Of a stretch of 64,000 nt of DNA, positions 1,709 to 64,000 are shown in pieces. The stretch comes from Verrucomicrobiota bacterium. GTDB taxonomy: Bacteria; Verrucomicrobiota; Verrucomicrobiia; Limisphaerales; JACDHS01. The DNA lies in NCBI GenBank assembly GCA_013820875.1, contig JACDHS010000001.1, positions 23,154 through 87,153 of the forward strand, written 5' to 3'. A program made the translations under genes and the position numbers. How positions within the stretch are numbered: position 1 is the first letter of the stretch; every line of letters begins with the position of its first letter. The notes below the pieces were generated by a model. It worked only from the letters and a program-made list of their open reading frames with translations. It was not told the origin of the DNA and ran no database searches.

Positions 1709-3802
1709 TTACTCTCCTTCAATGGTTTCCGCCCGTACGTGCGGCAAAGCGTGCAGCGCATATTCTGCCAGCAGCTTCCGCTCCGCGGCAGCTTCGCGTA
1801 TGCGTTGGTCGAGTGTGGGACGGGAATCAATGTTCGTTTCCTGGCGCAGCAGGCTGACCATCTGAACCGCAAGCACTTCGTCAGTTGCCATGATGGTTTT
1901 CCACTGTTTATCCAAATCACCTGCGGAACGATCCAAAAGGCGCCGCGCCTGTTCCCGCGGGCTCTCGTATTTGCCGTTCCCGTCCACATCGAGAAAGATC
2001 GGATTGGTGGCCGCAAGCGTGAAGAAGGTGTTAATGCGCTGCACTTTGTCCCCGATTTTCCTGGCTTTAGTGCCGATGCTGAGGTGATCCACGCCATCGC
2101 CGAGAACAACGCACACCAAATGCGCATCGTGTTTCGAAAGAGGAACGGTGAATTCCAGCCAAAGATCTGTCGGTTGATTCGTGGTTATAGGAACAGGTTT
2201 CTCCATCACCGGTTGACCGTTCAGATAAACGATGGCGCGCCGGGGATGAACCCAGGATGGGGCGGCAACTCGCAGGCGGACATCAACGCTGCTTTTCGTG
2301 GAAGAGACTGTTTGACCCATCCGATGTTCGCCATCCACCCGAATATCCGTAAAGATTCCGAGTGCTACAGAAGTTTCTCCCCGGAGAAAACGATCACAGG
2401 CATCGTCTACATCAATCCGGGCAGGATCGTCTGTGGCGCTTGGGACATAGGTCCGTCCCCATCCGACTGCATCATCCACTGTGTGCGAGTCGGACGATCC
2501 GATGGCCGTGACTTTTTCGCCGTGGTTCAGCAGCGAAAACCAATCGCGAAAAACGTAGAGCGGATCAGGGCGGGCGCCTCCCGGATTGGTCAACTCCATT
2601 GCATCGAAAGGGAAACGCGTCCCATTGCCAAACTCGCCGGAAGCGCGATTCAATCCGGCGCGGGTGAACGGGCTGGTGGCAATGACCGGTGAACGGGGAT
2701 GGTTCAAGATTACCACCTTCGCTCCTTTGGCCCGAATTCCGTCCACCAATTGCACCCAATCGCCGAGTTTATGGTTCGGCGGAGAGTCCTTCGGGTTCAG
2801 GGGAAAGCCATTCATGTGGCCGAGCGTCGTGCTCACTTCATTGCCGGTTACTGAAGTAAAGAATTCGTTCAAACCGAGTTTCTTTTGATTCGGGCGGTAA
2901 TCGGTATTGTGATTGTGATCGGTGGCAATAGCCAATTCGACACCCTCGCCCGCCAGCGTCAGGACACGCTCATTAAGATTGGCATCGCCATGCCCGCTGA
3001 AGGTCAGCGTGTGAACGTGCGTGTCGGCAGCGATGAAGCCGGCGGTATCCACTTCACGACGAATGACCAGGGGAATGCGGATCGCTGATTTCGAAAGGCG
3101 GACTGGAACTTCTTTTTCCGCGCGGCTCCATTCCATGCCACGCGTCGCGTAAAACTTGTATTCGCCTTCCGGTAAATCAAAATTGGTTTCAGTTCCCAAC
3201 GTGTACAGCGTGCCAACACGAAGGGCAGTGCGGTTCGTCTGCACGTTAAAAAGCTCAACCGGAAGGTTGTTGCTGTCGGTGATGGTCAGCCTGGCAGGAA
3301 CAGCCTTGCCATTTGCCGCGTCACTAACGGTGACGCTCACCGATTGCATGCGAAGCAATTCGCGAACACTCTTTTCGTAGAGTCGAATGGGTCCAATCAC
3401 CATGTTGTCTCTCGTCCGGGCGGGTACAATACTCACTACATTCTCTCCATCCTTCATCGTGCCCGGGGGCAGCGGGTAGAAGAAGACGCGCGGATCCACG
3501 TCTGGGTTGATCGTGGCGATGGTGGCTCCATTGATACGCAAGACGCAACGTTCGGTCACGTCACGCTGGCGAATGGCCAGCACCCATTCAGTCGCATTTC
3601 GCTTTACTTTCAGATGAACATCAAGGCGTTCTGCCTCCGGTTGGGGAGAAACTTCCGGCCATCCTTCCATGGGTTGAGCGCCCAGATGGTGATGTTTGGA
3701 GGTGACAGCCTGGCCGCCTTCAGGGAACACGATAGATTCAGCAGCCACATTCGCGAGCGAAGCGCCGAAAACCGCCAATAAAACTAAATGTTTCAAAAAT
3801 TT
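1709..3802 (-). CDS. CehA/McbA-family PHP-like metallohydrolase, exported (copy 1)
   Basis: This gene encodes about 697 residues with an N-terminal signal peptide (MKFLKHLVLLAVFGASLANV). The first half is beta-rich. The catalytic half has PHP-type metal motifs: DTHVHTLTFSGHGD, AIATDHNHNTDY, LNHPRSP and SSDSHTV. CehA/McbA proteins are metal-dependent hydrolases, some acting on carbamates, but the substrate here is unknown. The ORF track starts at a GTG (3850), but that lies inside the regulatory palindrome at 3847-3862, so I chose the ATG at 3802, which gives a proper signal peptide. It is a close paralogue of the gene at 9819-11885, sharing N-terminal segments such as ATEWVLAIRQRDVTERC. The palindrome in the 115-base gap after the kinase suggests its own promoter. 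The broken sulfatase follows directly. Confidence 0.85.
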   Translation of the reverse strand, partial: KFLKHLVLLAVFGASLANVAAESIVFPEGGQAVTSKHHHLGAQPMEGWPEVSPQPEAERLDVHLKVKRNATEWVLAIRQRDVTERCVLRINGATIATINPDVDPRVFFYPLPPGTMKDGENVVSIVPARTRDNMVIGPIRLYEKSVRELLRMQSVSVTVSDAANGKAVPARLTITDSNNLPVELFNVQTNRTALRVGTLYTLGTETNFDLPEGEYKFYATRGMEWSRAEKEVPVRLSKSAIRIPLVIRREVDTAGFIAADTHVHTLTFSGHGDANLNERVLTLAGEGVELAIATDHNHNTDYRPNQKKLGLNEFFTSVTGNEVSTTLGHMNGFPLNPKDSPPNHKLGDWVQLVDGIRAKGAKVVILNHPRSPVIATSPFTRAGLNRASGEFGNGTRFPFDAMELTNPGGARPDPLYVFRDWFSLLNHGEKVTAIGSSDSHTVDDAVGWGRTYVPSATDDPARIDVDDACDRFLRGETSVALGIFTDIRVDGEHRMGQTVSSTKSSVDVRLRVAAPSWVHPRRAIVYLNGQPVMEKPVPITTNQPTDLWLEFTVPLSKHDAHLVCVVLGDGVDHLSIGTKARKIGDKVQRINTFFTLAATNPIFLDVDGNGKYESPREQARRLLDRSAGDLDKQWKTIMATDEVLAVQMVSLLRQETNIDSRPTLDQRIREAAAERKLLAEYALHALPHVRAETIEGE

Positions 3803-3846
3803 CATTTCGACAGATGTAGGTTCCTCTTTTATTGCCGGAATGCATA

Positions 3847-3862
3847 TCACTCAAATGAGTGA
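3847..3862 (-). promoter_or_regulatory. Palindromic operator copy 1, upstream of a CehA/McbA gene
   Basis: The minus strand reads TCACTCATTTGAGTGA followed by TATGC. The two 7-base arms are perfect inverted repeats around a 2-base centre. It lies 45 bases upstream of the chosen ATG (3802), in the gap after the kinase gene. A -10-like hexamer is less clear here than at the other copies. It matches six other copies in the window. Confidence 0.7.
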
Positions 3863-3917
3863 AGGAAACCTGAATCGTGAGTTCGATCCTGTTGTCGCTT
3901 TGCAGCTTCGGACAGTA

Positions 3918-5489
3918 TCATGCTTCACGTTTTACGCGCTTCAACCCCGGCAAAACATCGCCCAGTTTCGCTGGCTCCGACCTCGGATATCCCAGCGCAA
4001 AATACAATTTTCGATACAACGCGAATAATTCATTATAAACCGTGACCGCTTTCGGTTCCGGCAGGATGGTGCGATACGACGGACAGAGAGCGCGTTGAGC
4101 TTCTTCGACGGTTTTGAAAATACCTGCTGCGAGGAAAGCAAAGATGGCCGAACCCAGGCTGGTGACTTCCTGCGAGGGAACCAGCACCGGCTTGTTGAAC
4201 ACATTCGCGTAAACCTGGTTCAACGTTTCATTCCTTTGCGGAATTCCCCCGCCGTTGATCACCCGGTTGATCGGAACGCCATGTTCCGCAAGTCGTTCGA
4301 GAATGATCCGCTTATGGAAAGCGGTTCCTTCGATTGCGGCAAACAATTCATCCTGCGCCGTGTGCATGAGATTCCAGCCAAACGTCACCCCGCCGAGGTT
4401 CGGGTTTGCCAGCACATTGCGATCGCCGTTGTCCCAGGTGAGCCGGATCAGCCCGGTTTGGCCCGCCCGAAACTGTTCAAGACCGCGCGAGAGTTCGGCG
4501 ACCGATGTTCCCGCGCGCCTGGCAATAGCCTCGAAAATATCGCCGGTTGCGGAGAGACCGGCTTCAATTCCTGCGAACTGCGGATGGATGGAACCGTTCA
4601 CCACTCCGAAGACACCTGGAATCGGCGATGCATTTTTCACAATTGCCATCATGCAGGTGGAGGTGCCGACCACGTTCACAACATCGCCCTCGCGAATGCC
4701 TGCGCCGATTGCGTCCCAATGCGCATCAAGGGCGCCGATTGGAACAGGAATGCCGGCACGAAGTCCGAGCTTTTGCGCCCACTCCGGGCAGAGTTCGCCG
4801 GCAACGTGATCGGAGGTGAAACAGGCGCCGGACATTTTTTCGCGCGCGCCAGCGAGAATCGGATCAACGCGACAAAGAAATACTTCAGGAGGAAGGCCGT
4901 CGAGTTCGGCGCGCCAGAGCCATTTGTGCCCCGTGGCGCAAACGCTGCGAAGCACTGATCCGGAATCGCTGACGCCGGTGAGGACTGCTGTCATCCAATC
5001 GCAATGTTCCAGCATCGTGGCCATTTGATCGCGTTTGCCTGGATTGTGGCGCAACCAATGCAGCAGTTTCGACCAACCCATTTCCGATGAATGCACGCCA
5101 CCACACCATTTAATCGCCTCCAGGCTATCACGATGCGCTGCTGTCGTAATTTCGTTCGCCTCCGTTTTCGCGCGGTGATCGCACCAGAGATAATAATCAT
5201 CCAATGGCCGGAGTTTTTGATCCACAGGAACAACCGTTGAACCAGTCGTCGCAACGGCGATTGCCAGCACATCGCGACCCTCTACATTCGAAGCCGTGAG
5301 CGCCTTCTCCATTGCGGAAACCAGCGCGTTTAAGTGGTCTTCGTGCCGTTGCGCTGCGTAATCGGGATCTTGATTTCGGCGGAGAAGGGGATAACTCGCG
5401 GTTGCAGAGCCGAGTTGTCCACGGTCGCTATCGACGAGCGACACGCGAACGCTTAATGTTCCAAAATCGATTCCGGCAACGATGGGCAT
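3918..5489 (-). CDS. FGGY-family carbohydrate kinase, ribulokinase-like
   Basis: This 523-residue cytoplasmic protein opens with the ATP-binding fold motif GIDFGTLSVRVSLVD. It carries WCDHRAKTEANEI, a phosphate-binding VNVVGTSTCMM, and the C-terminal GGGIPQRNETLNQVYANVF typical of AraB-type FGGY kinases. Family members phosphorylate pentuloses or related polyols to feed the pentose phosphate pathway. The length fits L-ribulokinase (about 550). No araA or araD lies nearby, so the substrate is uncertain and I give no symbol. Its neighbours are an FAD oxidoreductase, an SSF transporter, PHP hydrolases and a sulfatase, which suggests that it phosphorylates a sugar released by this locus. The start is ATG at 5489, immediately downstream of a GNAT remnant. 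Confidence 0.85.
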   Translation of the reverse strand: MPIVAGIDFGTLSVRVSLVDSDRGQLGSATASYPLLRRNQDPDYAAQRHEDHLNALVSAMEKALTASNVEGRDVLAIAVATTGSTVVPVDQKLRPLDDYYLWCDHRAKTEANEITTAAHRDSLEAIKWCGGVHSSEMGWSKLLHWLRHNPGKRDQMATMLEHCDWMTAVLTGVSDSGSVLRSVCATGHKWLWRAELDGLPPEVFLCRVDPILAGAREKMSGACFTSDHVAGELCPEWAQKLGLRAGIPVPIGALDAHWDAIGAGIREGDVVNVVGTSTCMMAIVKNASPIPGVFGVVNGSIHPQFAGIEAGLSATGDIFEAIARRAGTSVAELSRGLEQFRAGQTGLIRLTWDNGDRNVLANPNLGGVTFGWNLMHTAQDELFAAIEGTAFHKRIILERLAEHGVPINRVINGGGIPQRNETLNQVYANVFNKPVLVPSQEVTSLGSAIFAFLAAGIFKTVEEAQRALCPSYRTILPEPKAVTVYNELFALYRKLYFALGYPRSEPAKLGDVLPGLKRVKREA

Positions 5490-8020: not shown

Positions 8021-9813
8021 TTGTTTTCTTTTTGCGCAGGGTCGTTTTTTGTCGAACCGCGCGATTCACCCCCGGCGACCGCTAATTGAGACTGGTGCAA
8101 CCGCTGATTGATGGAATTTGCCATCCACAAAATCACGGCGCCGATCGCAAACAGGATCGCTGCGAAAACTCCTATGATAAGCGCGTCCTGTCGCACAATG
8201 GCCATCAGCAAAAACATCATGACGGCAATGGCGCATGTGGCTCCTCCGCAAAGCCGCGCAGGAAGCGATGAAGGCAAGGTTGGCTCTTCGTTGCGGTGCT
8301 CTGTCCGATGGGCCGTGACGCGCTCCCATCCTGCGTGAGTTTTCCTGATTGAAAGTTGTGCGATGACCAGCAGCAAAAGAGGAAAAGCGGTGCCCATGAC
8401 GATTTCGGACATCCGCACATTTGTTTGCACCAGTTGAACCAGAGGGGCGAGAGTTTCGATTTGCGTGAACCAGCCATCTTTGCCGAGTCCGAATTTGACG
8501 ACCATACCTGCGACAATGCTCAGAACCGTCACCATCCACGCTGTGCCCAAACCGATCTTTCGGGAAAACAATCCCCAGATCGTTGGCAACACCAGCGGGC
8601 CAGTCAGCATCGCCACGGAGGCGAGAATATAACCAGTGTAGGTGCCGAGGCGCGGGATCAACAGCGCGCCGGCCATTGCGATTCCGCCAAGCAACAGGGA
8701 AATGAGGCGTCCCGCCATGACCAATTCCCGTTCGCTGGCTGTTGGACGCAACTTCCCCCGATAGAATTCCGTGGTGAATGCGCCGGCAAAGACGTTGAGA
8801 AAAGTGGTCGCCATGCTGGCTGTGGCCGAGCACATCGCTGCGATCATTAGTCCGAGCATTCCCGCGGGCAGAACCGCTTTGCATGCCAGGATGTAGGCCT
8901 GCTCGGGATTCGCGTTGGGATCGATCAACCGGTAAACCATTGGCGGCAGCATCCAGATGAGCGGGCTGATCAGGTAGAGAGCGCCGAATAAATAGGATGA
9001 TTTTTGCGCGTCCCTTCCCGATGGCACGCAGGCAAAACGTTGCACATAGGCCCATTCGCCGCCCATCTTGAAAAAGAAAACGAGCATCCAGCCTGCGAGG
9101 AAAAACCAGGTGAATTCGCCTGCCACCGGAGAAAAGAAACCTTCTGGAGCAGCTTCAATGAATCCGCCGACTCCGCCGACGCGGGCCAGGATCATCGGCA
9201 CAACGACAAATACCGAAACGGTCAGGATGATGAATTGCAGCGCATCGGTCATCAGGACCGCCCAGAGTCCGCCGCCAGTTGTGATGGCGACGACCACCAG
9301 GCAAGTGATCACTGAGGCAAATGTGACGGAAAGATTTCCGGTGGCCGGGTCAGCGAGCATGTGCCCCGGTGAAAGAGGAACCAGGGCGCAAACCATAACG
9401 GCCAGGGCGTAAATGGCTCCGCCCATCGTAAAGATTCCGATCGTTCCCTGGAGCCAGGTGTAGAATTGCACCAGCGATTTGCCAAAGCGCGCATCGAGAA
9501 ATTCTGCCGCGGAGTCGTAGCCAAAACTTTTCCAGCGCGCGGCGAGAAGCCAGCCCACCAAAAGTGCGGCAATGCCGATGACAAAAAGAATCGAAACCCC
9601 AACCATCCCGTGTCGGTAGGCAATCCCGCCCCAGACCACGAATGTGCCGGCGGAGAAGGTGGTCATGAAAGCGGACAAGCCAGAAAGCCACCAGGGAGAT
9701 TGTCCTCCTGCGGCGAACATTTCGCGCGTGTTCTTCAGGCGAACGAAAATGCAGCCCATGGCCAGGAGCCCGGCTACATAAATTCCGAATACAAGGAGAT
9801 CAAGTGCATTCAC
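8017..9813 (-). CDS. Sodium:solute symporter (SSF family)
   Basis: This 598-residue polytopic membrane protein begins MNALDLLVFGIYVAGLLAMG and contains the SSF core region (AAGGQSPWWLSGLSAFMTTF, SAGTFVVWGGIAYRHG). I see roughly 13 or more hydrophobic segments, separated by loops such as KLRPTASERE. SSF proteins couple sodium entry to uptake of sugars, amino acids, nucleosides or vitamins; the substrate cannot be read from sequence. It lies 5 bases downstream of the second CehA/McbA gene and overlaps the FAD oxidoreductase start. The three are almost certainly co-transcribed, so it probably imports the compound processed by those enzymes. Confidence 0.9.
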   Translation of the reverse strand: MNALDLLVFGIYVAGLLAMGCIFVRLKNTREMFAAGGQSPWWLSGLSAFMTTFSAGTFVVWGGIAYRHGMVGVSILFVIGIAALLVGWLLAARWKSFGYDSAAEFLDARFGKSLVQFYTWLQGTIGIFTMGGAIYALAVMVCALVPLSPGHMLADPATGNLSVTFASVITCLVVVAITTGGGLWAVLMTDALQFIILTVSVFVVVPMILARVGGVGGFIEAAPEGFFSPVAGEFTWFFLAGWMLVFFFKMGGEWAYVQRFACVPSGRDAQKSSYLFGALYLISPLIWMLPPMVYRLIDPNANPEQAYILACKAVLPAGMLGLMIAAMCSATASMATTFLNVFAGAFTTEFYRGKLRPTASERELVMAGRLISLLLGGIAMAGALLIPRLGTYTGYILASVAMLTGPLVLPTIWGLFSRKIGLGTAWMVTVLSIVAGMVVKFGLGKDGWFTQIETLAPLVQLVQTNVRMSEIVMGTAFPLLLLVIAQLSIRKTHAGWERVTAHRTEHRNEEPTLPSSLPARLCGGATCAIAVMMFLLMAIVRQDALIIGVFAAILFAIGAVILWMANSINQRLHQSQLAVAGGESRGSTKNDPAQKENK

Positions 9814-13059: not shown

Positions 13060-13249
13060 GGAACGGCTTCAACCAACCCTGATACCGGCAGTGGGAATTA
13101 AGAAAAAGAAGGGAAACCACACCGAATGGAGTGCTTCGCACCGCGATTCTCGCGATGTCAAATACGACCGGCACTTCGTTTCTTAACAAATTAGTGTTCA
13201 TTCGTGGTTGATCCGCCCCCGAAATGGCCGCTGCGCCTCTCTGCCAACT

Positions 13250-13550
13250 CCGGAACCGACGATGCACGGTAACAATACCTCTGCAGCCCCGGAAATGACG
13301 ATGTACACGGTAACAGGCCTCTCTGCAGCCTCGGAAATGGCGGATGTATACGGTAACAATACCCTCTGCAACTCGGGAAATGAGAGGGAATTTTGCCGAA
13401 TTGGGATTCAAAGAGAGCCTTTGCCCCTCCGGGGCAGGTTGGAGCACGCTCTGGGCGTATGCCGATTCGGCAAAATTCCCACTCAATTTCCGAGGCTGCA
13501 GAGGGTATCACCAGAGCTTTCGCGTCATTTCCGAGGCTGCGGAAGGTATA
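13250..13550. repeat. ~42-bp repeat array folded into a large inverted repeat
   Basis: CGGTAACA...CTCTGCAGCC units begin at 13267, 13308 and 13351 (periods 41 and 43), with a weaker unit before them. On the right side the same words occur inverted (ATTTCCGAGGCTGCAGAGGG near 13486; CATTTCCGAGGCTGCGGAAG near 13525). In the middle, GGGAATTTTGCCGAAT (13386-13401) pairs with ATTCGGCAAAATTCCC (13465-13480), and a small CCCCTCCGGGG hairpin lies between them. The whole could form one long stem. Confidence 0.75.
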
Positions 13551-58632: not shown

Positions 58633-61593
58633 TTAAAATGCCAACACACGGTAAATTTTTTGATCGTTTGCAGGAGAAGCATCCTCGATGAATGCGTGGG
58701 AACCGGACACCACGATGTCACCATTCAGAACCTGCCAGATCGCATCATCCAGGCTGTTTTTGAATTGTACCTGGTAGTTTTCTCCCGGCATAACAGTCCA
58801 CGAAATCGTCGGCCCATCACCACCAGTGCCCGGCGTTATCGTGGCGTAAAGAAAAGCAAATCCGAACACGTCGGTTCCGCGATTGAAATCGGTTGTGCTC
58901 AAGCCAGAGGCCGAACTGGCAAACACTAGAGAACGCCCATCGCCGCTAAAGACCGGAGGGAGTAACCAGTTGTTGCCACCGGAACTGAGAAGCTTGTTCG
59001 TCCCGGCGAGTCGATCATACAGAATAATGTTTGGCCAAAGATTACTGACACCGGGAATAATGTTTGACGCAGTGCTGCGATAAGCGACAAACCGGCCATC
59101 AAAGCTGATCGCAGGAACGTCCGAAGCTGCATCCCCTGCCTCGGATGTATCGTGGCTTCTGCTGATGTGGGTTTTTGTTCCTGCCTGGAGATCAAACAAG
59201 AAGGTATCGAATGTCCCGTTGGTATCGTTCACCACAGATTGCATGTTCGTGGTCGCAAAGGTTAAAAACTGGCCGTCGCCGCTGAAGCGTAGTCCGGTTT
59301 GGATAGGGCGAGTTATCGGACCGACCAACCAATTGCTGCCAGTGCGCCAGTTCAATGCGTTTAGCTGGCTGTTCCGGACATACGCCAGGTAATCGCCATC
59401 AGGACTGATCGCGACCCTAACATTTTCAAGATTGAAGTTCGTGTAAACCCGGGCAGAAGCTTCGGAATCCCAGATGTAAAGAAGGTTGCCACTGCCAATG
59501 TTTCCAATGAACGCAACATACTTCCCGTCCGGTGTCATTGACGCATCCGACACCCCAGCCGTGGTGAGCGCCACGGTTGTGGAGCTTTCCAGAACACGTA
59601 AGAACAGGTTGGTCCCAGACTGGATAGTCGCAAGGTTCGATGCCCTGCTGCGGAAAAGTAGATGCCGGGCATCGGCGCTGATCTGTGGCCCAAAAGAATC
59701 ATTGTTGCCCCCTGAAGTGCCGATCGTCGAAACACTGGCAAGAGCAACGCCCGGAGACTGCATATCGCGAACAAAGACATTCCATACTTTGTCGGCGCCT
59801 TTGGGAGCCAGGTCACTGGCCGTGCTGACGAAAGCCACATAACGGCCATCGCCACTGATGGAAGGGTCGAGACACATTCCATTCGCGCTGAAACCATTGG
59901 TATTGACGCTGACCAAAGTTGTAGCGCCATCGAACGTGTCCCGAACGAAAATGTCGCGTTTGCCGTTCGCATCATTCCCCACAAGGTCATCAGCACTGCT
60001 GTCAAAGGCGATGTAGCGTCCGGACGAACTGACCGACGGTGCCGACATAATGCTTGATCCCGCTCCCGCAAAAGACGGTAACTGCGGGCTGCTGGCGGAG
60101 ATTAATTCCGTTGTGCCGTTCACCACATCGCGCAGGAAGACGTCGTAGGCGCGATTGTTATCGCCGGCAACAAAACCACCATCGAAAGCTTCAAAGGCAA
60201 CGAACCGACCACCTTCACTTATTTGCGGAATTCCAGTGGGAATCACTTCTGAACCTGTTCCATTGGTATCCACGTTGATGAGAGTGGTTGTTTCCAACAA
60301 GATGTCTCGACGATAGACGTGATACAGACCGGAAAGCACATTTGTCACAAGTCCCGGAGCGCTGCTGACAAAGCTGACGAATCGGCCAGTCGCATCGATT
60401 GTCGGCCAGTCACAGGTTGAATCAACTGGAACGACACCGTTTGTATCGCCACTGACGAGCGTCGTCGTGGCAGTGTCGGCGTCCCAAACCTGAATGTAAG
60501 TATTGACGCAGCTCCCTGCCCCAGCGTTCGCGATGAAAGCGATAAATCGGCCATCTGGAGTCATGCTCAAATTACGAACGAAGGCAGGAGACGTGTTGGG
60601 CACGCAGATATTGGTATGAATCAAATCGGTCAACCCCGTTTCTCTGTCATAGCGTAGGATGGTTTTCGTTCCCGGGTTTCCTCTCACTTGAAAGGCAACG
60701 AACCGTCCATTCGCGCTGATGACATGGTTAAAGGAAAAGGCATTCGTGCTAAGCATCGAGGCATCAGTGCTTGCAAAAATCGTTGTGCCTTCAAGAAGAT
60801 CGCGCAAATAAATTTCCCCGGAGGTGCCCACATCCGCAACGAGATTAGTGGCTGTGCTATGGAACGCCACGAACCGCCCATCATCGCTGATCTGCGGCAT
60901 CTCCGACGCACTTGCCACAGTCACCGACATCGCTCCCGGACTCGCGAGAACAGTGGTATTCAGCTCCAGATCACGAACGAACACATCTGGAATGCCGTTG
61001 GTATCGTCCCAAACCAAGTTGTCGGCCGCACTGACAAACGCCACGTAACGCCCATCGGGAGTGAATACCGCGTCCCAGGAAGCACCATTGGCGTTGCCTC
61101 CGTTGGTGCTGACACTCACGCAGACTGTGACTTCGTTAGTCAGATTGCGAACGAAAATGTCTTTTACATTATTGGTATCATTCAAAATCAGGTCGCTGGC
61201 GCTGCTTTCGAAAAGTGCGAAATGGCCATTGGTGGAAATCCCCGCAGCAATTGAGTTCGCGTTCCCGCCGCCAGTGCCATTTATGTTCGCGCTGATCAGA
61301 GAAGTCGTCCCGTTCGTTGAATCTCGCACGAACACATTCAGTGCCCCTTGGGAAGAAACCACAGCGGCTGTGTTGTTCGTGGTAAGACAGAGATTTTCGG
61401 CTGCGCTGGTGAAAAGGACAACCCGTCCATCGGGCGTCAGGATGGGTGAGTAGGAATCCGAACCTCCGGCGGCAGAGGGTTGCCGCGATTCATCCGACGC
61501 CGTGAGTAGATGAAATGAGTCTGCGAAAGCAGACTGGCAAAGAAAAAGGAAAGTCAGAATCAACGACCATTTATTTCGAAGATGGATTCTCAT
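58633..61593 (-). CDS. Exported TolB/PD40-type beta-propeller protein with FYR-like C-terminal domain
   Basis: The protein is 986 residues from MRIHLRNKWSLILTFLFLCQ (signal peptide); the track start at 61659 adds 22 residues. More than ten PD40/WD40-like blades are visible, each with the D-G-R-x-V-A-F pattern (SDDGRFVAFHSTATNLV; SGDGRYVAFVSTASDLA) followed by DxFVRDL-type strands, suggesting two propellers. The C-terminal ~65 residues (YQVQFKNSLDDAIWQVLNGD ending QKIYRVLAF) are a divergent copy of the QRFYR domain of the giant proteins upstream. No catalytic motif is visible. It is followed closely by the prepilin-like gene. Confidence 0.85.
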   Translation of the reverse strand: MRIHLRNKWSLILTFLFLCQSAFADSFHLLTASDESRQPSAAGGSDSYSPILTPDGRVVLFTSAAENLCLTTNNTAAVVSSQGALNVFVRDSTNGTTSLISANINGTGGGNANSIAAGISTNGHFALFESSASDLILNDTNNVKDIFVRNLTNEVTVCVSVSTNGGNANGASWDAVFTPDGRYVAFVSAADNLVWDDTNGIPDVFVRDLELNTTVLASPGAMSVTVASASEMPQISDDGRFVAFHSTATNLVADVGTSGEIYLRDLLEGTTIFASTDASMLSTNAFSFNHVISANGRFVAFQVRGNPGTKTILRYDRETGLTDLIHTNICVPNTSPAFVRNLSMTPDGRFIAFIANAGAGSCVNTYIQVWDADTATTTLVSGDTNGVVPVDSTCDWPTIDATGRFVSFVSSAPGLVTNVLSGLYHVYRRDILLETTTLINVDTNGTGSEVIPTGIPQISEGGRFVAFEAFDGGFVAGDNNRAYDVFLRDVVNGTTELISASSPQLPSFAGAGSSIMSAPSVSSSGRYIAFDSSADDLVGNDANGKRDIFVRDTFDGATTLVSVNTNGFSANGMCLDPSISGDGRYVAFVSTASDLAPKGADKVWNVFVRDMQSPGVALASVSTIGTSGGNNDSFGPQISADARHLLFRSRASNLATIQSGTNLFLRVLESSTTVALTTAGVSDASMTPDGKYVAFIGNIGSGNLLYIWDSEASARVYTNFNLENVRVAISPDGDYLAYVRNSQLNALNWRTGSNWLVGPITRPIQTGLRFSGDGQFLTFATTNMQSVVNDTNGTFDTFLFDLQAGTKTHISRSHDTSEAGDAASDVPAISFDGRFVAYRSTASNIIPGVSNLWPNIILYDRLAGTNKLLSSGGNNWLLPPVFSGDGRSLVFASSASGLSTTDFNRGTDVFGFAFLYATITPGTGGDGPTISWTVMPGENYQVQFKNSLDDAIWQVLNGDIVVSGSHAFIEDASPANDQKIYRVLAF

Positions 61594-61838
61594 GAGGAAC
61601 GATTTCACCCAGTGTATTCCAGTGGACATCTGGAGTGAGCTTCCCAAATTCAAAACCATCCGTCAATGATGTGAGCGCAGAAGTACAGGGCATTGCTTGG
61701 GATTCAGTATTCAGTGCACCGTCGGCCGTTCCTGCTGAAAACCGAAGTTTTCGTAATGGTCATCATTCTCGTGAGACGTTCTTTTTCAGGCTGACGGAGA
61801 GCACATTTTTTGTGAGAGAGACTTTTTTTCATAGGCTC
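61594..61838. other. Intergenic region upstream of the propeller gene
   Basis: No gene is supported. The region includes the upstream sequence of the propeller gene; no good copy of the palindrome is seen (only a TCACTCCAGATG half-site on the minus strand). Confidence 0.45.
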
Positions 61839-62132
61839 CCGTGGAGGGTTTGCGCACCGGCAAAAAAGGGATTTTGGGGAGTCAGCAAAGGTTGTTGGGT
61901 GTCAAAAAACGCTTTTTTAACTGTCAACAACCTTTGCGCACTCCCCAAAATTGCTTTTTTGACTGTCCGCAAACCTTGCGAGGGTCGCAAAAAGCCTTTT
62001 TTGACCTTCCGCAAGGTTTGCTGGGTGTCGAAAAAGGGTTTTTCGACAGTCAACAACCCTTGCGCACTCCTCAAAATTGCTTTTTTGACTGTCCGCAAGG
62101 TGTGTTGGGTGCCAAAAATCCCTTTTTTCGTC
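61839..62132. repeat. Seven-unit tandem array of exactly 42 bp
   Basis: Units begin at 61839, 61881, 61923, 61965, 62007, 62049 and 62091 without a single indel. Each has a GTC-nn-CAA start and a CAAAAAn-CTTTTTTGAC-like inverted-repeat end. Units at 61923 and 62049 differ at 2 of 42 bases; others are diverged. Because 42 is a multiple of three, several frames stay open on both strands and read as 14-residue repeats (for example CQQPLRTPQNCFFD on the plus strand, KKAFFDTQQPLLTP on the minus strand). It may be non-coding; see findings. Confidence 0.85.
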
Positions 62133-62380
62133 ATTTTACGCCCAAAATCAGGTTTTCCGGGTGGTAAGCCGATCGAAACTCGTTCTCATTTTCCAAATAT
62201 TCGGCATCTTTCGCGGTTCCAAAAATCTGCGCAATCTGCGGGATTAAACGGTTCCCAAACCCAAACAAAAGCAACAAGGAATTGCCGCTTTGCGATCCTC
62301 TTTCTCCCTCGCCCTTTTCCGAAAGGGAGAGGGCCGGGGTGAGGGATTGCCCCTTGGCTAGCGGTCATATCTCCCCCCCC
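62133..62380. other. Intergenic region with a GGGAGAGGGCCGGGGTGAGGG-type repeat
   Basis: At 62299-62348 a CTCCCTCGCCCTTTTCCGAA / GGGAGAGGG hairpin is followed by CCGGGGTGAGGG, a word typical of dispersed intergenic repeats in many Gram-negative genomes. Near 62227, ATCTGCGCAATCTGCGGGAT resembles the dispersed repeat. A run of eight or more C lies near 62375. No gene is seen. Confidence 0.5.
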
Positions 62381-63223
62381 TTACGATTTGATATCGCGCA
62401 TTTGGAAGCCGGTGCAGCCGATGATGAAGAAGGTGAGATTGAATCCGAACAGGATAAACAATGATTCGACGATGCGAGACCACGGGATCGGTTGGGCATA
62501 AACCGCTACCCACGTCCGGAAATGATGGAGCAACATAAACTCGCGGTAATCCTGGAAGAACGGGATGTTTTCCATCACCAGGTTGAGCAACAAAAAGGAG
62601 AAGCCGAGCACAGTGGCGGCCGCCGGTTTCATGTTAAAACAACCGAACATGAACGCGATGGTCATCATGGTGGCGGCATTGATCGCCAGAAATACGTGTG
62701 ACAAAGAATAAATCTTCAATCCTTGCGCCGCGCTCATCACATTAAAAATCCGTTCCGGCTCGGGAATGAAGACGAACATTCCCTGCCATGGAAACCACAT
62801 TCGAGCGAACACGACGGCCATCAATCCAAGTGCGACGACGAGCACAATAGAGAACACCACTCCGGCACACCATTTGATGAACATCAGGCGCACCCGCGAA
62901 ATCGGACGGGATAGAATCATTCGGAGCGTTCCGTCCTCCGCTTCCTTTGCCACCAGATCGCCGCCGACAAGGCAGGCGTAGAGCGGCATGAGAAACAGGA
63001 TTTGTGGAAACAACATGATCAACGCGACCGACAGCGCGGAGATAAAATCCATGGCGAGATAGCCGTTTCCTTCCAGGAGTCGAACGACCTTTTCCTCCCA
63101 TTTCGTAAAGTGAAAGGCGAGCAGCATGGCATTTTGCGCCAGCAGGAAGGTACCGAACCCGATGTAGGTCCGTTTCTTGCCGAACAATTTCCAAAGCTCG
63201 TTACGTAATTGGAGAAAAAACAT
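62381..63223 (-). CDS. ABC-2 type transporter permease
   Basis: The protein is 280 residues from MFFLQLRNELWKLFGKKRTY; the track start at 63325 adds 34 residues of unlike composition. It has six hydrophobic segments and the ABC-2 hallmark AKEAEDGTLRMILSRPISRV between the second and third. It pairs with the ATP-binding gene immediately upstream (98-base gap) to form an exporter or natural-resistance-type transporter of unknown substrate. The C-terminus is GCTGFQMRDIKS. Confidence 0.88.
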   Translation of the reverse strand: MFFLQLRNELWKLFGKKRTYIGFGTFLLAQNAMLLAFHFTKWEEKVVRLLEGNGYLAMDFISALSVALIMLFPQILFLMPLYACLVGGDLVAKEAEDGTLRMILSRPISRVRLMFIKWCAGVVFSIVLVVALGLMAVVFARMWFPWQGMFVFIPEPERIFNVMSAAQGLKIYSLSHVFLAINAATMMTIAFMFGCFNMKPAAATVLGFSFLLLNLVMENIPFFQDYREFMLLHHFRTWVAVYAQPIPWSRIVESLFILFGFNLTFFIIGCTGFQMRDIKS

Positions 63224-63321
63224 ATAAAACGGGAAGTGGAACGGGAAACGGAGTATTGGAGTGGTGGAGTATTGGGATTTTGGCTCGACTATTCGCCATT
63301 GGTTGTGCCGTGCCGACTCCA

Positions 63322-64000
63322 TCACTCCATTCCCCCACTTCCTCCCTTCTTCATCAACGACAGATAAAAATCTTCAAGCGTTTGTTCGTGCCGGGCGATT
63401 TCGAAGACAGGCATCCCCTGCTCTACCAGGCGTTTGACGATCTGATCTGTCCCAATGCCGTTCGCAAGCGTGACGAATTCGCCATCGCGCATGTCGTCGA
63501 TCAGTTTGAATCCGCGCAAACAGGCAACGGCAGCCTCAAAGTCACCAACCTTCATCCGCACCCAACTCTTGTTCTTCTTCACATCGGCAATGGTGCCTTC
63601 AAAAACTTTTTCTCCCTGGTTCATAACTGCGAACCGCGTGCAGAGTTGTTCCACTTCATTCAGCAAATGCGATGATAACAGGATGGTCAGGCCAAGATCG
63701 CGATGCAGTCGGAGAACGGTTTGCCGCATTTCGTGAATGCCTTCCGGATCGAGTCCATCGCTCGGTTCGTCGAGAATGAGCAACTTCGGATTCGGCAACA
63801 ACGCCTGGGCCATGGCCAAACGCGCCCGCATTCCGTGCGAATAGGTTCTCACCGGCGATTGCTCGCGACCGGTCAGACCAACCCAATCTATAACTTCACG
63901 AATGCGCGCGGCAGAAGTGGGCGCGGTGTAGTGCGATAAAATTTCGAGGTTCCGCCAGCCACTGAGAAAGTCGTAGAAGACTGGGGATTCAAAAATCGCG
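63322..64000 (-). CDS. ABC transporter ATP-binding protein (partial, N-terminus outside the window)
   Basis: The minus-strand frame is open from the window end (codon 63999-63997 on) to the stop at 63322. The track shows only the part from an internal GTG (63852). The visible part starts AIFESPVFYDFLSGWRNLEI and includes the ABC signature YSHGMRARLAMAQAL, Walker B LLILDEPSDGLDP, and the H-switch LSSHLLNEVEQLC. The Walker A motif must lie beyond the window. It ends with a helical C-terminal region typical of CcmA/NatA-type ATPases and is followed by its permease. Confidence 0.92.
   Translation of the reverse strand, partial: AIFESPVFYDFLSGWRNLEILSHYTAPTSAARIREVIDWVGLTGREQSPVRTYSHGMRARLAMAQALLPNPKLLILDEPSDGLDPEGIHEMRQTVLRLHRDLGLTILLSSHLLNEVEQLCTRFAVMNQGEKVFEGTIADVKKNKSWVRMKVGDFEAAVACLRGFKLIDDMRDGEFVTLANGIGTDQIVKRLVEQGMPVFEIARHEQTLEDFYLSLMKKGGSGGME

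Follow-up and report, generated by a model that had tools for sequence, protein, structure and literature searches.

A dispersed, non-coding tandem array of A-tract palindromes in a Verrucomicrobiota genome, and the recurrence of its helical spacing in other families of the order

The 64-kb stretch of DNA analysed here (hereafter the window) carries a 42-bp tandem array that belongs to a dispersed intergenic family. Two conclusions about it are well supported: the array is non-coding, not a protein gene, and arrays from several families of the order, hardly or not at all alike in sequence, share a lattice of two or four helical turns. As for what the element does, we see an even chance that it is a dispersed non-coding BIME-like DNA element that would serve as a curved platform, with many sites on one face, for a minor-groove or architectural protein.

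Sequence, TRF and phasing agree that the 42-bp repeat described in an earlier note on this DNA is real, with six full units at 61876-62127 and degenerate units at the ends; TRF gives periods of 42, 84 and 126 across 61888-62128, with 0-2% indels. Read on the plus strand, the array opens with a conserved 5' end, E5, which is a degenerate unit (CTCCCGTGGAGGGTTTGCGCACCGGCAAAAAAGGGATTTT; 61835..61875) that could be aligned in 13 other copies and was not matched by the reversed-pattern control. It is followed by the 42-bp units D (61876..61917), A (61918..61959), B (61960..62001) and C (62002..62043), a second A (62044..62085) and a last unit that is a B/C hybrid (62086..62127), so that the unit order of this copy is DABCA plus the hybrid. 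The array closes with a conserved 3' end, E3 (TCGTCATTTTACGCCCAAAATCAGGTTTT; 62128..62156), found in 11 other copies (control 0). D and A are the left and right arms of a first quasi-palindrome, and B and C those of a second: in the consensus units, D and the reverse complement of A are alike at 32 of 42 positions, and B and C match in this way at 28 of 42. The array as a whole, with its inverted D:A and B:C pairs, is therefore a succession of quasi-palindromes, and the A-run/T-run inverted repeat noticed earlier in the units (CAAAAAnnCTTTTTTGAC) is present as one level of this larger symmetry. The 42-bp quasi-palindromic units have A5-N3-T5 centres, and the seven A-run/T-run centres of the window array are spaced by steps of 42, 42, 42, 42, 42 and 41 bp. 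On one side lies the start of a gene for a PD40 beta-propeller protein (58633..61659, minus strand), and on the other the end of a gene for an ABC-2 type transporter permease (62381..63325, minus strand), both assigned by Pfam; the array itself is intergenic. Elsewhere in the window, 13235-13383 holds a second, unrelated tandem repeat of 3.6 copies of 43 bp, with 5-6% indels.

The window is part of one contig (C109) of a 5.7-Mb genome in 239 contigs (G000). A DNA search of this genome for the 42-bp family, as the earlier note had proposed, matched 17 places. These correspond to about 16 arrays, because the fragments in C119 (L019) and C232 (L023) look like halves of one split array. Each of the two lies near a contig end and abuts an identical transposon end (TGAGGTTCCCCCGATTTAG), and they probably represent one array split by an insertion sequence that entered an A-run. 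All copies in the genome are intergenic, and their orientation relative to the neighbouring genes is mixed. They occupy dispersed sites with conserved ends and unrelated flanks, and some are truncated. Intact copies begin with CTCCCGTGGAGGGTYTGCGSACCGGCAAAAAAGGGATTTT and finish with CGTCATTTTGCGCCCAAACTCAGG. Good matches to E5 and E3 in the genome all fall in array copies, save one solitary E3-like site with two mismatches (C83), at which there is no array; reversed-pattern controls gave 0. Seven of the copies (C37, C220, C155, C151, C119, C44 and C232) form a subfamily whose longer common flanks run into a separate dispersed repeat, CCGCTAATCTGCGCTAAT. An intergenic repeat distinct from the 42-bp element and likewise dispersed (AACCGCTAATCTGCGCTAATGG...GGTGAAATCC) is found in C31, C82, C226 and C20 and at the 3' ends of subfamily II arrays, being fused to some array copies; the window carries a similar stretch, CTGCGCAATCTGCGGGATTAAACGGTT, at 62228-62254. 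The same genome has a CRISPR array with the repeat GTTCTCCCCACACACGTGGGGATGGTCCG in C160, near 15695 (L134). Our literature searches found no description of this 42-bp element.

The copies share the architecture E5-(D-A-B-C)n-E3 and differ by gain or loss of whole units, with the unit order kept. The order is DABCABC in C72, C167, C120 and C54 (the last minus one base), DABCDABC in C220 and C151, DABCDBC in C37, DABC in C155 and DBC in C69, and C217 has a single unit. The strong divergence without indels that had been remarked on in the window holds throughout the genome: among the 87 units of 14 copies, a base is missing from only one, which lies in C54. The first quasi-palindrome of C120 has a centre exactly inverted with respect to the other copies, a sign of template switching between the arms. 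Slippage and template switching at palindromes could by themselves build functionless tandem quasi-palindromes, and the exact inversion in C120 together with whole-unit gain and loss are the signatures of these processes. We nevertheless regard such a mutational by-product as quite improbable, as it fails to predict dispersal with conserved ends, diverged units free of indels, or the equal two-turn step that is seen in unrelated arrays (below).

The array had also been read as a possible small protein of 14-residue repeats. Three of the six frames of the window copy are indeed free of stops, as had been noted, because of the composition of the units. The two changes that separate the units at 61923 and 62049 had been correctly read as synonymous in the plus frame of the ORF at 61841-62167, although two changes are no test. 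In the same frame, 27 of 111 substitution types were synonymous against 26.3 expected, which is no synonymous excess. The frame of the ORF at 61635-62342 has more synonymous types than expected (38 of 111 against 26.1, uncorrected for six frames and for non-independence), but this frame is interrupted in C54 and C120, and codon-position counts of 30/33/48 are not significant (p ~0.08). The single-base deletion in C54 leaves a 41-bp unit and shifts the frame, every copy is intergenic, and a Pfam search with three ORFs across the array returned nothing above the cut-off. Furthermore, related arrays step by 41 and 20.5/21 bp. Steps of 41 and 20.5 bp cannot hold a frame, and unit lengths not divisible by three had been named in the earlier note among the results that would speak against it. 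A repeat protein can therefore be practically dismissed.

The search for homologous arrays in relatives, also suggested earlier, uncovered arrays that share the lattice and mostly not the sequence. A blastn search of 38 genomes from the order gave no match. When 320 genomes of the order were scanned with a covariance model built on the D:A hairpin, two turned out to have real arrays of other sequence (L137 in G072 and L138 in G201), and a search with the architecture pattern gave 24 matches in G001, 7 in G072, 4 in G201 and single matches elsewhere, with a reversed control of 0 everywhere. Because this first pattern fixed the step near 42, the search was repeated with every step allowed to vary from 19 to 49 bp. 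Regular arrays again appeared at 20-21 or 41-42 bp only, the reversed-pattern control being 0 in these genomes; the repeated search added G104 (41 bp), G132, G149 and G229 (21 bp) and a further array in G001 (C30, 41 bp). Free-step matches in G160 and G032 were irregular and are not counted as arrays.

The period is 41 bp in G001 and G072 (TRF indels 0-3%, except in part of L171), 42 bp in G201:C40 and G235, and 21 bp in G118, G207, G201:C434 and G218, so that both 42 and 21 occur within G201; the G072 steps are 41/20.5 bp. For the 141 steps measured, a trial period of 10.4-10.5 bp gives a resultant of 0.86, compared with 0.36, 0.59 and 0.30 at 9, 12 and 15 bp. The common lattice in other families of the order thus consists of A4-5/N3/T4-5 palindromes at steps of 20.5-21 or 41-42 bp, and its presence in arrays of unrelated sequence points to a DNA-shape or protein-docking role and not to a repeat protein. 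Local palindromes are above background in the core (0.67-1.0 versus 0.24) and usually in the flanking arm too.

Some of these arrays do share sequence. At least five matched arrays in G001 have related sequence and, by eye, similar 5' ends, which implies that G001 also has a dispersed family; arrays of G001 and G072 are 70% identical over 178 bp and are therefore not fully independent. Near a 6-phosphogluconate dehydrogenase-like gene, on opposite sides of it, lie one array of the window's own genome (L012, C54) and one of G001 (L169, C72), which may be chance. In total, arrays were found in G000, G001, G072, G104, G118, G132, G149, G201, G207, G218, G229 and G235. Their occurrence in the order is patchy (about 12 of 320 genomes), some of those in relatives are short, and arrays lacking A-runs are missed by lattice searches that require them. 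Beyond the order, matches are at control level: in a phylum sample of 388 genomes the architecture search gave nothing above the control outside the window's own genome. An exact DNA pattern had two lone matches in GTDB and IMG/VR, both in GTDB and neither with a 42-bp array, blastn found none in phages and plasmids, and viral contigs had no match with a 42-bp step and one iteron-like match at 21 bp (L220).

Could the element work as RNA? Transcribed hairpins might stop or pause transcription, or protect or process mRNA, and a stack of pausing hairpins had been among the initial suggestions. The predicted folds are extremely stable (-146 kcal/mol, z -11.6 for the whole window array; z -2 to -15 for relatives), and in 10 of 11 full copies the plus strand gives the better fold. 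Any palindromic array folds, however, and covariation across 18 hairpins was at the level of shuffles (5 pairs versus 3.7, with 95 of 500 shuffles as high). In the window's own genome fixed G.T pairs exceed fixed A.C pairs (76 versus 19 in D:A, 91 versus 43 in B:C), which is suggestive, but counted by column in D:A the two are nearly equal (11 versus 10), and across relatives the comparison is inconsistent. There is no terminator-like site within the array, Rfam gave only sub-threshold matches on the array (sensitive search of the region and gathering scores over the whole window), and the mixed orientation of the copies relative to neighbouring genes also argues against a transcribed role. 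We therefore consider an RNA function unlikely, and the pausing-hairpin suggestion is not favoured.

As double-stranded DNA, the arrays should have a strong, phased intrinsic curvature, according to a wedge model. In this model the window copy has an end-to-end ratio of 0.74 versus 0.89 in dinucleotide shuffles, and the best relatives reach 0.42-0.55. Some curvature builds up in any tandem array whose unit is close to a whole number of helical turns. When columns were permuted equally in all units, so that the period was kept, no more than 4% of the permutations were as curved in the model for 12 of the 14 arrays. The modelled arrays straighten once their period is altered by 3-5 bp, and those of G207 and G072:C147 come out as weakly curved. 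The arrays thus have the hallmarks of phased curved DNA, with A-tracts in helical register and curvature above controls, the latter as predicted by the model. The null results of the RNA tests and the curvature prediction together suggest that the conserved trait is the geometry of double-stranded DNA.

Several known systems resemble this element in part. Bacterial A-tract clusters and curved intergenic DNA likewise have A-runs and T-runs in helical phase and strong predicted curvature, but they are loose and unique, whereas the present element consists of discrete tandem palindromes with defined ends and dispersed copies. The iterons of theta plasmids, with phased repeats of about 21 bp, are the nearest architectural parallel; they differ in that this element is palindromic and has many dispersed chromosomal copies, and we recognised no Rep gene beside the arrays, judging from the flanking ORFs of the copies by eye and from the window's two neighbours in Pfam. 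The viral contig IMGVR_UViG_3300012979_001646 (L220:8299-8361) holds three near-identical 21-bp repeats (AAAAAGTGTTTTTATACTATG) with A5-N3-T5 at a 21-bp step, directly upstream of an ORF (8474-9199) that from its reading resembles a Rep_3 replication initiator. In Bacillus, the ComK box has the consensus AAAA-N5-TTTT. ComK promoters, in which A-tract boxes one and two turns apart are coupled through curvature (PMC8170675), are the nearest mechanistic parallel, as A-tract/T-tract palindromic minor-groove sites at whole helical turns. There, the spacer is N5 and the boxes occur as promoter pairs; here, the spacer is N3 and the arrays are long and intergenic.

The BIME, REP and REPIN repeats of E. 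coli, Pseudomonas and Stenotrophomonas are intergenic and multi-copy, with alternating palindromic units in variable number, and are reported to be protein-binding platforms (for IHF and gyrase), all of which likens them to this element. By the defining features given for REP and BIME (PMC3733652, PMC2817692), the palindromic units here are extragenic and alternate in orientation, D:A and B:C being inverted and all copies intergenic. The GTAG/CGTC tag is lacking, GTAG/CTAC occurring three times in 5.5 kb of copies and never in the window copy, and CGTC being present in some E3 ends only. The 17 matched places fall short of the more than 100 per genome of REP and BIME, and none of the five strong Y1_Tnp genes of the genome is next to an array, where a RAYT would be expected. 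The present element is set further apart by a unit length held to helical multiples, by its A-run/T-run centres and by its conserved outer ends. It thus works like a REP/BIME without qualifying as one. MITEs are likewise short non-coding repeats that have defined ends and lie at unrelated sites, but here no target-site duplication was detected, no autonomous partner with the E5/E3 ends was found in the genome, and the inverted repeats at the ends are only degenerate units.

These parallels raise a competing, somewhat doubtful explanation, namely that the arrays are purely selfish non-autonomous repeats of the MITE/REPIN/BIME kind. A transposase acting in trans would recognise the palindromes, and the phasing would come from the transposition complex or from amplification, not from a host function. 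Multiple intergenic copies with conserved ends and unrelated flanks, some of them truncated, are consistent with it, as are the proposed mobilisation of BIMEs by RAYTs (PMC2817692) and the IS200-like Y1_Tnp gene that lies 0.6 kb from the G072:C147 array. This 41-bp array (L172) sits between that gene (1258-1764) and one with TIR_2 and ORF6C (2845-4275). Against it, the nearest Y1_Tnp gene in the window's genome is about 6 kb from an array, and the GTAG tag is absent. No target-site duplication was detectable either: the longest word common to both boundaries measured 6.4 within copies versus 6.0 between copies, the exact boundaries being uncertain. This explanation leaves the two-turn lattice of sequence-unrelated arrays unaccounted for.

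A multi-site protein-binding array, the remaining suggestion of the earlier note, fits best because the two- or four-turn lattice is kept despite little or no sequence similarity. We propose that the element acts as double-stranded DNA, in which equally spaced A-run/T-run palindromes with a narrow minor groove would lie on one side of a curved helix. They may form a cooperative, multivalent surface on which a dimeric protein of the minor-groove or nucleoid type could dock. Within the genome the element would have spread as a non-autonomous repeat, with copy length shifting through whole-unit gain or loss and template switching between arms. A wider proposal, which we put forward only tentatively, is that this class of element is set by geometry and not by sequence across several families of the order, with A-run/T-run palindromes at two-turn steps, and that a conserved architectural protein recognises the arrays, which would serve it for anchoring or silencing on the chromosome. 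The patchy occurrence within the order is as compatible with a selfish element as with a cellular role.

Bacterial repeats are usually classed by their sequence; here, a spacing of two or four helix turns recurs across families in which the sequence differs. Should the arrays bind a dedicated protein, they would offer a natural system in which to test how bacterial DNA is organised by phased A-tracts. Such a role was proposed long ago but has seldom been assigned to discrete elements. Should they be selfish, theirs would be a repeat family that spreads in a manner linked to helical phasing.
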